Source: Artemia franciscana
Lineage: Eukaryota > Arthropoda > Branchiopoda > Anostraca > Artemiidae
Length of the DNA stretch: 64,000 bases
Direction: 5' to 3'
Assembly: GCF_032884065.1 (NCBI RefSeq)
Contig: NC_088871.1
Span: forward strand, 16,674,472-16,738,471
Below are positions 19,901 to 41,700 of the stretch, piece by piece (the stretch's first letter is position 1; each line of letters begins with the position of its first letter). The notes below the pieces were generated by a model, which saw only the letters and a list, made by a program, of their open reading frames with translations, searched no databases and was not told the DNA's origin. A program made the position numbers and the translations under genes.

Positions 19901-22900
19901 CGAATACGAGGAGGTTGCTCCCTCCTCAATAAACCCCACTCTTTACGCTAAAGTATTTAGTAATTAAAAAAAAACCTTCTGCATCTAATGGAATGGTCTT
20001 TGTGTTTTAGAAATCACTCTTAAAGAACTGGGACAAAAAGTTGAACTTTAGCGTAAAGAGCTAGGTATTGAGGAGGGGGTAAACCTCCTCGTATTCGCAA
20101 TATTCATCCATGGAAAGATCTTCCCACGTAACCTATTCACATACAAAAATCCCCCCGAAAAGATTATGTATACTTCCCAATAGCCAATATTATATCTAAA
20201 CAATGGGCATAGTTCATATCATATACCCCTTCCCCAGGACCTGTGAGGGGTCAAGTCATCCTCAAATACGTTATTATTATTAGTTTTTACTATGCTGGAC
20301 AAAATCGCTATCTCAAAATTTCAGTCGGATAACTTTAGGAAAAAAGGGCGTGATAGAGGGGCTAGCTGCCTTCCAATATTTCTTGTCACTTAAAAAGGGA
20401 ACTAGAACTTTTCATTTTCGATCAAATAAGCCCTCCCTCGATCTCCTAGGCACTATCACCCCTGAAAAAAAATATACACGCATCCGTGATTTTGCTTTTG
20501 GCAAAAAAAAACCAAATTCCATATTTTTGTATATAGGAGTTGGAACCTCTACACTGAGGATCTCTAATATGCGGAATCTGAAGGTGTAATTTTCATTAAG
20601 ATCACTTGATGTTTTAGGAGTGTTTCCTCCTTTTTCGAAAATTCAGCAAATTTTCTCAGACTCGTAGATAAGATTAAACTTGATGAATCTTTTGATGAAT
20701 TAAAATTGATGAAAAGCATGTATCAATGTCGATCAATGTATCAATCACTCCTTACTCAGAGTTCTTAGCCACGAATTGTTTGATCTGAAAAAAAAAATGT
20801 TTTGTTCATTTTGTTCCATTCTTGGACGAGTTTTACTAAGTAAAAACTCTTGCAAAATTTGATTTCTCCTTTAAATTGATTGCCACATAATCAATTCTCA
20901 GAATATTAAAAAAAAAAAATGAGATTAGAGGAATATCTTGTACACAAGATATTTCAAAATCGGTTAGTAATTAAGTGCGACGACGTACAACTGCATTGTT
21001 TATTGGGCCACTAAAAATTAACCTACTACCATAAAACAATAGATATCAAATAAGTACATTTAAATGGCAGACTTATCGGACTCAGCAATCACCAGATCTT
21101 TGTGAAAAAACAAACAAAAAAGAACAAATAATAAAAGTCAAATTTCCAACATAGCAACTACTCAGTAAATACGACTTCCCACCTTGAAAAAAGGGTTAGT
21201 TTGTAAGACATAAAGCAATAAGGCTGGAACAAAAAAAAGCATAAAAGGCATAATAAAATTTTAGAGCAAAGCTTTTATCTTTGATTTCCCCTGTAAATGA
21301 ACTTTTTACTAGATATACAATTTTAATACATCGGATTTCCATCATTATTCATCTTTTTACTTAATCTAAGGTCTTAAATTTTCGGCAACTCTATCTACCA
21401 ATTTTTTTTATTTTCTCCCCTCTCCTTTTATTTCTATACGTTTGGATTCATAAAAATAAAAAGTCAGGATACTTTGTGAGCTGTGATGCACAAAAGAGAG
21501 CCTCTTAGTGTCACCATCAAATATAACATACCGATATCCCAACTGGTTCCCATTGTATGACGAACAACTATATTCATTAGTGCAAGGATACAATTTTTAG
21601 GATAAACGATAGCAAGATATTCCCTTAAATGGGATGGGGGGATCCTACACTACAAAAGTTTATAAAATAGAATTTTTTTTTAAAGAAAGATAGTGTGGAT
21701 ACTCAAACAACTTTTTCCAAATGAGCTAGATACGAAGAAATATAAAACAAATACTCAAAAAAAGTAATTAGAAATACAACATTGCAAAAAAAGTATTGAT
21801 AGTTTATATATTTAATGAGAAACCTCTAATAGATACTAAACTTGAAGTCTAATCGTTGAAAATACTTGTTAGAGGGATACATATCAGAGAAACTGGAATA
21901 TATTTGTCGAATAAATGTCAGTTTTTACACTGACCTAAAATATACAATACCATCAAAATTTTAGCAAACAACATAAGTGAGTTCCATAAAACAGTCAGGT
22001 TGACTTCATAAAAGTGGGTTAAACCTACCGAAAAAGGGATACGACCTCAATGAGAATCAGATCAGGAATTCATCTTATTACAGAACCCCAGTTTCAACTT
22101 TTCAACCAACTCTCTCAAATAATAAAACAGAGAGTTCCCATAAGATTCAACCAATGCAAAAATTCAGCAAAAGCAAAATTCAACCCGGCCAACATACCAC
22201 ACCAAAACTCAAGAGAAACGAATTTCAGCCAACACGGAATCACACCTATCAAAACTCAATCTAGGAATCTAAAAAATTTAAACTGTGCAAAACTCAACTC
22301 ATGTAAAATTGAACACTAAGAAAATTTCACCATAGCAACATTATCAAACAATGGTAACGAACTGTAGTAAGGAGCGACCCGGCTCAACAGTAATAGAAAC
22401 TATAAAAAAATGGAATTTTGATACCAATAGCTACATAAAAAAAAATGCATTTTAATGCTGATTTTAAATATCTAAGTTTCATCAAGTTTAGTCTTACTCA
22501 TCAAAAGTTACGAGTCTGAGAAAATTTGCCTTATTTTAGAAAATAGGGGAAAACAACCCCTAAAGTCATAGAATCTTAATGTAAATCACACCATCAGATT
22601 CAGCGTATCAGAGAACCCTGTTGTAGAAGTTTCAAGCTCCTATCTACAAAAGTGGAATTTTGTATTTTTTGCCTGAATCTTGCGAGAGGGCTTATTCTAA
22701 CGGAAATGAAAAGTTCTAGTGCCCTTTTTAAGTGACCAAAAAATTGGAGGGCACCTACGCCCCCTCCCACGCTAATTATTTTCCCATAGTCAACGGATCA
22801 AAATTCTGATATAACCATTTTATTCAGTGTAGTCGAAAAACCTTATAACTATGTCTTTGGGGAACGACTCACTCCCCCACAGTCTCCGTGGGAGGGGCTA

Positions 22901-38700: not shown

Positions 38701-41700
38701 TCATAAGAACTATGTCTTTGGGGATGACTTACTCCCCCACAGTCCCTGGAGGAGGGGCTGCAAGTTACAAACTTTGACCAGTGTTTACATATAATAATGG
38801 TTATTGGGAAGTGTACAGACGTTTTCAGGGGGATTTTTTGGTTTTGGGGGTAGGGTTGGGGGAGGGGGCTATGTGGGAGGATCTTTCCTTGCAGAAATAT
38901 GTTATGGGGAAGAAAAATTCAATGAAAAGGGCGCAGGACGAATCTGGTCACGTTAGAAAAAAACGTAAAATTCAGAGCTTAATATACAATGCTGGGTGTT
39001 TGGAGCCTCTCTATTATGGAGTATAATTTGAAAATACACAACTATACGAGTGATAAAACTTATATACCACAACCATAACTCAACTAACGAAAGAACTGCT
39101 AAGAGATAACACAACTGTAAAGTGAAAACAGGTGAAAACTAACCGGAAAATAAACAAACTAAGAGGTGGAAGGGGCCCAGAGAAAAAATACAATCCTTTT
39201 CCAATTTTGAGCCTAGCTTCCGCAAAGGAGTAATAATGTCAGAAGCCCCGAAATACCGAATTATTTTCTTTTCAAACAGTTTGTGGTAACAAACTGTAGT
39301 AAGGAGCAACCCGTCTCAACAGTAGACGAAACTCTAAAAAACGGAATTTTGATGCTAAAATATACATCAACAGAATCAGAGTTTCATGCTGATTTTAAAT
39401 ATGTACATTTCATCAAATTTAGTCTTTGTCATCAAAAGTTACGAGCCTGAGAAAATTTGCCTTATTTTAAAAATAGGGGGAAACACCCCCTAAAAGTCAC
39501 AGAATCTTAACGAAAATCACACAATGGCATTTGGCGTATCAGAGAACCCTGTAGTAAAATTTACAAGCTCCTATCTACAAAAAAGTGGAATTTCGTATTT
39601 TTTGCCAGAAGACAAATCATGGGTGCATGTTTATTTGTTTGTTTTTTTTCCAGGGGTCATCGTATCAACCAAGTGGTCCTAGAATGTCGCAAGAGGGCTC
39701 ATTCTGACGGAAATGAAAAGCCATAGTCAAAAACCATAATAACTATGCCTTTGGGGATGACTTACTCCCCCACAGTCCCTGGGGGAGGGACTGCAAGTTA
39801 CAAACTTCAACCAGTGTTTACATATAATAATGGTTACTGGGAAGTGTACAGTTGGTTTCATGGGATTTTTTTTTGGTTTTGGGGGTGGGGTTGAGGGGAG
39901 GGGGCTATGTGGGAGGATCTTTCCATGGAGAAATATGTCATGGGGGAACAGAAATTCAATGAAAAGGGCGCAGGATTTTCTAAAATTACTATAAAAAAAC
40001 AATGAAAAAATAAACATGGAAAAGTTTTTTTTCAATTGAAAGTAAAGAGTAGCATTGAAACTTAAAACGAACAGAAATTATTATGCATATGAGGGGTTCT
40101 AAAAATACTTTAGCATAAAGAGCGAGGTATTTAGGAGGAGATAAATACCTTGCTCTTTATGCTATAGTATTTTTAGTAATTTCAACTATTTATTCTACAG
40201 CCTTTCTGATTCAGGGGTCATTCTTAAAGAATTGGGACAAAACTTACGATTTAGTGTAAAGAACGAGGTATTAACGAGGGTACAAACCCTCTCATATACA
40301 TAATAAAAATTAAAGAATATAAAAGTTTGTTACATAAGATAATTCTTAAGTTACATATATTTTTTACTAGAAAAATTCGTTAAAAATAAAAATTTATAGT
40401 TGCCTTTTTATGTAACCAAAAAATTGCATGGCAACTAGGTCTCCTTTCCCATCCCTTATTTCTCAAAATCGTGTGATCAAAACTAAGAGAAAGCCATTTA
40501 GCCAAAAAGGAATTAATATGCAAATTTCATTTTAATAATTTATGTGTGGAGAGCCAAAATCAAACATGCATTAATTCAAAAACGTTCAGAAATTAACATA
40601 AAAAAAACTAGTTTTTTTTACTGAAAGTAAGGAGCGACATTAAAACTTAAAACGAACAGAAATTACTCCGTACATGAAATGGGTTGTCCCTCTGCAATCC
40701 CTCGCTCTTTACGCCAAAGTTTGACTCTTTGCCACAATTCTGCTTTTTAATACAATTAAAAGCTTTAGTGTAAAGAGCGAGGGATCGCGGAGGGGACAAC
40801 CCATTTCATATACGGAGTAATTTCTGTTCGTTTTAAGTTTTAATGTCGCTCTTACTTTCAGTTAAAAAACTAGGTTTTTTATTTTATGTAATTGCTTGAA
40901 AGAACACAGATAATTATTTCCATAAAGGGGCTTCTGACTTGGGAAATTCTGACTTTGAATTTAAAAAAAAGGGAATAGTTGTGGGAAAAGTCAAAGTCAT
41001 GGCCAATTGTAGAAAAAAGCCAAGACAGATTGTTCAATTAAGTGGGCAGCCCAGTCAAGGGTTAATTTTATCCCTTTGATTGCCGTTGTTACTGTCTCCC
41101 ATTTATGCTACACCTTTCCGTGCATGTGTGTCCCTTCACAAATGCCGAACTAGAGTCGTACCTGTTGGAGGTTCTTGCTGGGGAACACATGCAGGTTGAC
41201 TTACTTGAAAATTTTCCTCTCATGGCTATCACTCGACAATGCTGAACTAGAGTGAACATGAACAAATTATTAGATAGAACATTTGAATTATCATTAGCAG
41301 AAATAACACTTAGATCAACATTTGAAGCATTTGGAGAAGGATTGGATGAAGCTTCACAAGAAGTATCAACTGACAATTTATCAAAACAAAGCACTGGGGA
41401 AACAAAACTATTTACATGAAGATGCAATGAAATAACTAGGTATCCATTGTGGATTGGTTTGGAGGGGGCGAGGGTGGGGCTTCTCGTTTTTTGGAACATT
41501 TTGGCCCTTGAACAACTAAGGCCTTTCTCCTGTTTCTCTCTGTCTTGGATGTATCACCACAAAATTGTATATCCTTATGGAGCTCGCGGGATTGGTTGAT
41601 GATTGACCTTTTGATGTCTAGACTAGGGACAGTAAAAAGAACAGGAGGAGGGTGTGCAGATGAGAGAGTTAGTAGGGATTTGAAGTCTTCTCACATTATT

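Follow-up and report, generated by a model that had tools for sequence, protein, structure and literature searches.

Template switching between the arms of inverted repeats homogenises the arms and inverts spacers in yeast genes, where the repeats that switch have shorter spacers (arms of 7-16 bp, spacers of at most 70; PMC8604942). In RNA genes, template switching gives rise to multi-base compensatory changes and, rarely, to loop inversions (PMC8794818). Among mobile elements, Galileo of Drosophila, a Foldback-like member of the P superfamily, has terminal inverted repeats (TIRs) that are >99% identical within each of two copies and ∼7% divergent between them; in two other copies, located at both breakpoints of a chromosomal inversion, the middle segments lie in opposite orientation (PMC2775673). 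The Galileo TIRs flank the element, measure 575-610 bp in two copies with up to 1.2 kb reported, and are accompanied by 7-bp target duplications (PMC2775673). HINE/DINE-1/Helentron elements combine a high copy number with subterminal inverted repeats, a 3′ palindrome and the lack of an encoded protein, and insert in T-rich sequence; the proto-Helentron has a CTAG terminus (PMC4067079). Here we analyse a hairpin-bearing dispersed repeat in a stretch of 64,000 nt from Artemia franciscana (assembly GCF_032884065.1, NC_088871.1, 16,674,472-16,738,471, forward strand), referred to as the window throughout.

The repeat is represented in the window by two full copies, one 5′ fragment, one degenerate copy and smaller pieces (Table 1). 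In a full copy, TCAAACA and a small hairpin at the start are followed by an internal hairpin (B or D) and, last, a long palindrome (C or E); a fifth hairpin, A, belongs to the degenerate copy. We find that the matching of the hairpin arms is real, yet that the matching arms are mainly subfamily marks of one very abundant hairpin-ended repeat. As in Galileo, arms are alike within a copy and divergent between copies, and the middle occurs in opposite orientations; unlike in Galileo, the palindrome stands at one end of a repeat of ∼1.6 kb (PMC2775673). Like the HINEs, the repeat has a high copy number, subterminal inverted repeats, a 5′ TC and a 3′ palindrome and encodes no protein (PMC4067079); its pairing spans ∼286 bases. 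Arm homogenisation and spacer inversion recall the switching repeats of yeast, the loops measuring 43 nt in C and E and ∼81 nt in the internal hairpins, which sort by side; the differences are that the arms measure ∼94-130 nt, that they belong to a mobile repeat and that the event is visible only as a subfamily difference (PMC8604942).

Arm matching in the window hairpins

Folding recovered hairpins C, E and A at the positions given in a first-pass annotation of the window (predicted energies of −184.5 kcal/mol for 23728-24013, −172.4 for 40601-40880 and −115.1 for 19780-20130, respectively), as well as two further hairpins, B at 23120-23375 and D at 40020-40310. A 26-mer from the outer arm occurs six times in the window at up to three mismatches, compared with an expectation of 0.00. 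As that annotation had claimed, arms are alike within a copy and unlike between copies: the two arms are identical at 87/94 positions in C and 87/92 in E, comparisons of arms between copies give 77-80 matches and 13-16 mismatches, and the informative sites group the four arms by copy in seven cases, by side in none and by opposite side in none. The accompanying statement that each opposite arm carries the complement of its own version is exact for the motifs quoted for E (40674, complement at 40793) and A (19902, complement at 20082). It is inexact for the C motif (23801), whose opposite arm has GGGGCTG in place of GGGACTG and hence contains no exact reverse complement of it.

Over all ten pairs of hairpins A to E, which are not independent of each other, the sites sort 59:5:2 by copy, side and opposite side. 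The closest pair, B and D, gives 1:2:0 when the left arm of D is taken without its 33-base inserted segment. In a tree built from the ten inner arms, the two C arms pair with each other (94/90), as do the two E arms (97/93); the left arms of B and D join weakly, by side (68/62). The true pairing of arms ranks first among the 120 possible left-right pairings and second among all 945, the top one pairing the left arms of B and D with each other and likewise their right arms. For arms that diverged independently, the expected number of by-copy sites between C and E is 0.97 with four flank segments as the yardstick (0.25 divergent; P = 7 × 10−5), 0.54 with the three segments that remain once the most divergent one is removed (0.19 divergent; P = 1.7 × 10−6) and 0.26 at a rate of 0.13 (P = 1.3 × 10−8). 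Between C and E the loop is reverse-complemented, although the left flanks share their orientation: aligned to the inverted E loop, the C loop scores 50, compared with 13 in the same orientation and 27 for the best of 2000 shuffles.

The 7:0:0 pattern, and arm mismatches (7/94 and 5/92) that lie below the flank divergence on either yardstick, are what would be seen if continuing arm-to-arm conversion inside each inserted copy, by hairpin-templated repair or recombination, maintained the matching. Taken alone, by-copy sites are weak proof of this, because a control inverted-repeat family at 33401-36500 gave mixed counts by copy, side and opposite side (3:2:4, 9:0:1 and 4:2:0). The control family forms a cluster of ∼600-bp units with ∼150-nt inverted arms that sort cleanly neither by copy nor by side. 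Matching within but not between copies is no sure sign of conversion inside a copy, and a single window with two copies does not suffice to distinguish such conversion from subfamily inheritance.

Arm versions as probable source subfamilies

Hairpins were compared across a sample of the genome (1.27 Gb, 6468 contigs), in which a search returned 1878 first-look candidates, 40 of them scored. We took 28 of the 40 scored places, one of which is the window, and added twenty stretches of 10 kb placed at round coordinates across six contigs. Scanning with an arm profile gave 75 arm pairs, of which 20 lie in the fixed-place stretches. With both arms near full length and a loop of 30-50 required, 36 terminal hairpins passed, comprising 27 picked for likeness to C, seven from fixed places and two from the window; the internal sample holds 35 hairpins, two pairs with both arms full being excluded. 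Seven terminal hairpins per 200 kb of fixed-place stretches on the six contigs translate roughly into ∼44,000 in the genome. Two copies, L052 and L062, share their downstream flank and represent one insertion in duplicate; they lie on contigs C1 and C18, in a duplicated segment or an assembly duplicate. On the 3′ side of the hairpin at L070 3501, the 5′ end of another copy follows three bases on in the same direction, forming a head-to-tail tandem.

Three copies on three contigs (W_E on C9, L070_3501 on C1 and L083_5834 on C5) carry version E on each arm together with an inverted loop, and version C is found in 30 copies, 27 of them selected for C-likeness. Because of this recurrence we regard it as highly probable that the arm versions are source subfamilies, each amplified with its palindrome already matched, the arms of individual copies then decaying. 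Across the three pairs within the E group, by-copy sites number 0, 0 and 0. The most frequent shared variants within C are one-sided: A at column 60 in ten left and no right arms, T at column 99 in ten right and no left arms, and T at column 95 in eight right arms and one left arm (10/0, 9/0 and 7/1 without the duplicate L062). All three E copies further carry the inverted duplication of the D-type internal hairpin, that of L070 having been judged by eye after the pattern scan missed it. The duplication is not in B and is common to L058, L070 and L083, and is therefore a subfamily trait; a reading of it as a copy-specific template switch in D was dropped for the same reason.

The first-pass annotation had set arm-to-arm homogenisation against two other patterns, arms clustering by side across copies and a few source subfamilies explaining all matches without any conversion inside copies. 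Clustering by side is clear in the internal hairpins, in which 66 of 70 arms have their closest match on the same side of a different copy and the consensuses of the two sides differ in 12 columns; among the terminal hairpins, sorting by side is weak. The second pattern largely fits the terminal hairpins: it agrees with the distribution of C and E, with the absence of by-copy sites within E and with the one-sided variants within C; it does not by itself account for the counts in the nine unselected copies or for the matched changes within C described below.

Several observations weigh against source subfamilies as the explanation, foremost the unselected copies. In the nine unselected copies, sites sort 212:6:8 by copy, side and opposite side, and the nearest relative of their 18 arms is the own partner in eight cases, an arm of the opposite side in seven and of the same side in two, with one tie; we take the by-copy excess as subfamily differences because several of the versions there were sampled once. 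For all 36 terminal hairpins, the nearest arm is a tie in 37 cases, on the same side in 20, on the opposite side in ten and the own partner in five. Pairwise totals within C amount to 272 by copy, 146 by side and 29 by opposite side, the first being high because ten matched changes, four of them in one copy, are each counted against many others. That copy, L085_8595 (L085 8595-8825), shows 0/94 differences between its arms and four matched changes from the subfamily consensus, and is the best candidate for true within-copy conversion. Finally, version C and loop state C are over-represented, since 27 of the 36 hairpins were chosen with a query holding the arms and the loop of C; this selection of the loop state along with the copies also lowers our confidence in the overall account given in the next section.

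Matched changes and possible template switching

More than subfamilies is needed, because C and E differ by at least seven diagnostic columns that are changed on both arms alike, together with an inverted spacer, and because within C ten changes are matched on both arms (113 are one-armed) compared with 0.57 matched changes expected. With CpG columns removed, eight changes are matched and 77 one-armed (0.3 expected); among changes private to a single copy, four are matched and 50 one-armed (0.06 expected). Together with the nine unselected copies, this excess indicates that some arm homogenisation occurs. The homogenisation proposed in the first-pass annotation thus stands in so far as matched changes exceed chance within C, but much of the matching within copies was passed on from the subfamily source.

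Conversion continuing inside each inserted copy would account for the excess of matched changes, for the 212:6:8 sorting of the unselected copies and for the identical arms and four changes of L085_8595. It is at odds with 113 one-armed changes across 30 C copies, with shared variants that remain one-sided and internal hairpins that sort by side, and with an E version common to copies on three contigs, and we therefore consider it unlikely as the general cause of the matching.

To explain the resets to new matched versions, we slightly favour rare switches of template from arm to arm. The hairpins would be the internal and 3′-terminal palindromes of one very abundant non-autonomous repeat with a Helitron/HINE-like, rolling-circle layout, and each arm version a source subfamily whose palindrome was already matched when it spread. 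Once inserted, a copy has arms that decay largely independently, as shown by the sample of 36 terminal hairpins, mostly chosen for likeness to C, and 35 internal ones. New matched versions would be rare products of source lineages, formed when replication takes first one arm and then the other as its template, so that one arm is copied onto the other and the spacer may be inverted; the joint signature of arms and loop suggests such an event without dating it. As proposed here, version E would be paired with an inverted loop because a template switch can flip the spacer. Two possible intermediates, L085_145 and L089_3490, are too few to trace the step, and only three of 36 hairpins represent version E. 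For the combined account of source subfamilies, independent arm decay and rare template-switch resets we put the chances at about even.

The position of the palindrome at the 3′ end of the element, and two loop orientations relative to the flank (31 C-state and three E-state loops among 34 oriented copies, two of the 36 being not orientable), would also fit a renewal of the matched version in every round of transposition, in which the 3′ palindrome is copied back on itself in the manner of a rolling hairpin and flip and flop loops are a by-product. None of the 30 C copies is flipped, a count in which 27 copies were chosen with a C-state loop query and only three are free of this bias; one-sided variants, moreover, survive amplification and count against renewal, because renewal in each round would erase them. 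We regard such per-round renewal as very unlikely.

Exchange between elements, with ectopic conversion or recombination swapping whole terminal hairpins and partly uncoupling the version from its backbone, is suggested by copy L058, which combines a D-type internal hairpin and the outermost bases ATTACAT/ATGTAAT with version C arms and loop state C. These outermost bases are found in two of the three E copies (W_E and L083), the third, L070, having ATTAAAT/ATTTAAT. L058 is a single mosaic among the 34 oriented copies, and a likeness to the parent of the E subfamily is an alternative reading of it; exchange would in any case account for the spread of matched versions, not for how they arose, and appears improbable as an explanation.

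Largely, the repeat shows ordinary subfamily behaviour; what this leaves to be explained is the origin, in each new subfamily, of a hairpin matched afresh and in one case inverted. A bolder extension, to which we give little credence, is that the repeat, with its tens of thousands of copies, periodically rejuvenates its 3′ palindrome in the source lineage by an arm-to-arm switch that makes the pairing perfect again and may turn the loop round, each reset founding a successful subfamily since rolling-circle replication needs a perfect 3′ hairpin in order to end. Were the reset idea true, the family, with its roughly estimated ∼44,000 hairpins, would offer a natural experiment in which template switches in long palindromes could be counted, and in which the amplification of copies could be examined for its dependence on a perfect terminal hairpin.

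Architecture and class of the repeat

The two full copies align over 22341-24037 and 39269-40909 with 72.5% identity in 1754 columns. Decayed arm matches are also present in the degenerate copy at 19438-19525 and 19746-19812.

Table 1. Copies, fragments and hairpins of the dispersed repeat in the window
Feature	Position	Strand	Remarks
Full copy 1	22344-24020	+	5′ end TCAAACA, 3′ end AGTTAAT, both set by eye; B internal, C terminal
Copy 2	38118-38938	+	5′ part only, without hairpins
Full copy 3	39272-40892	+	5′ end TCAAACAGTTTGTGG, 3′ end ATGTAAT; D internal, E terminal
Degenerate copy with hairpin A	18574-20130	+	Arms of A at 19859-19953 and 20046-20105
Reversed 5′ part of the repeat	20145-20744	-	Adjoins A
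Fragment of the 5′ half	63624-64000	+	Reaches the window end
Internal hairpin B	23126-23370	+	Left arm full, right arm short, ∼81-nt loop
Terminal hairpin C	23755-23985	+	94-nt arms, 43-nt loop, loop state C; pairing out to ∼23728-24013
Internal hairpin D	40028-40306	+	Holds 35-nt inverted duplication 40099-40176, arms 33/35 identical
Terminal hairpin E	40627-40855	+	Arm version E, loop inverted relative to C

Canonical Helitrons have a 5′ TC terminus and a 3′ CTRR terminus. The 5′ TC end of the repeat is supported by 15 of 27 rows in which the match covers the probe from its first base and the bases upstream are unlike; the remaining 12 begin inside the 5′ probe, several because their stretch ends short and two (W_C and L056) with an altered end. 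At the 3′ side the CTRR terminus is absent; in its place, 27 of the 34 oriented copies have a conserved AT[T/G]TAAT end, beyond which the sequence differs among copies, save in the duplicates L052 and L062. A 3′ palindrome and subterminal inverted repeats are present, as in HINEs, with GTAAGGAGCGAC close to the 5′ end as the subterminal repeat and its complement located ∼35 nt away from the 3′ end. A PIF1-like helicase fragment (63086-63547, minus strand; PF05970, 8.1 × 10−20) adjoins the incomplete repeat fragment at the window end. We found no autonomous Rep/helicase partner, no genome search having been aimed at one. Since the CTRR end is absent and an autonomous partner is not established, we have not filed the repeat as a Helitron; its architecture resembles that of Helitrons and HINEs, membership being unproven. 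Long TIRs at both ends, as in Foldback and Galileo, are absent, the long palindrome being confined to the 3′ end. Sixteen of 27 copies have an AAG that begins 4-9 nt past the 3′ end (e.g. 40893-40902; control fraction 0.135), a range picked after the ends had been seen, and this may reflect a possible insertion preference.

The repeat was also sought outside the host genome. A 26-mer had no exact matches in the collections of viral contigs and of genome contigs, two more patterns had none in the viral contigs, and searches of plasmids with copy 1 and of phages with copy 3 gave no match. A 16-mer found 41 stretches of bacterial records in the genome contigs; none aligned to the repeat over more than 25 bases, and we took them as chance. 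A 24-base string of the repeat was found in no papers, and as the literature was checked by that string only we do not claim that the repeat is undescribed.

Gene context and the RNA reading

A phosphoglucomutase-like exon lies on the minus strand at 18301-18536 (PF02878 on the open reading frame 18301-18612), and a second such exon on the same strand is indicated near 28705 by a motif only. Hairpins A, B and C are situated between the two, so that they would be intronic in a phosphoglucomutase-like gene and transcripts probably contain them. Together with the strong predicted stems, this location would be in line with selection for a long double-stranded or structured RNA that acts through compensatory changes to maintain arm pairing. 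We see no sign of such selection, which the first-pass annotation had offered as an alternative to homogenisation. G.U pairs are not biased to one strand, forming 4/12 of the arm mismatches of C and E in plus-strand RNA and 6/12 in minus-strand RNA, a small number of sites; the 113 one-armed changes in C copies run counter to maintained pairing; and at gathering scores Rfam gave no match at the hairpins. Selection on RNA is accordingly the least plausible of the explanations considered, and we give it hardly any weight.

The single Rfam match in the window is a tRNA at 9570-9650 (34.3 bits; ARAGORN anticodon cta), a tRNA-like sequence that is possibly part of a repeat. An exon of the ribosomal protein S12/S23 family is encoded on the plus strand at 46050-46448 (PF00164). 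The segment 42300-42545, which has no Pfam match, resembles an upstream exon of this gene. At 50603-50860 there is an unrelated near-palindrome of 258 bp that is 81% self-complementary (−168 kcal/mol over 50590-50870), and a tandem array with a period of 278 and 5.4 copies (83% matches) occupies 51338-52871.

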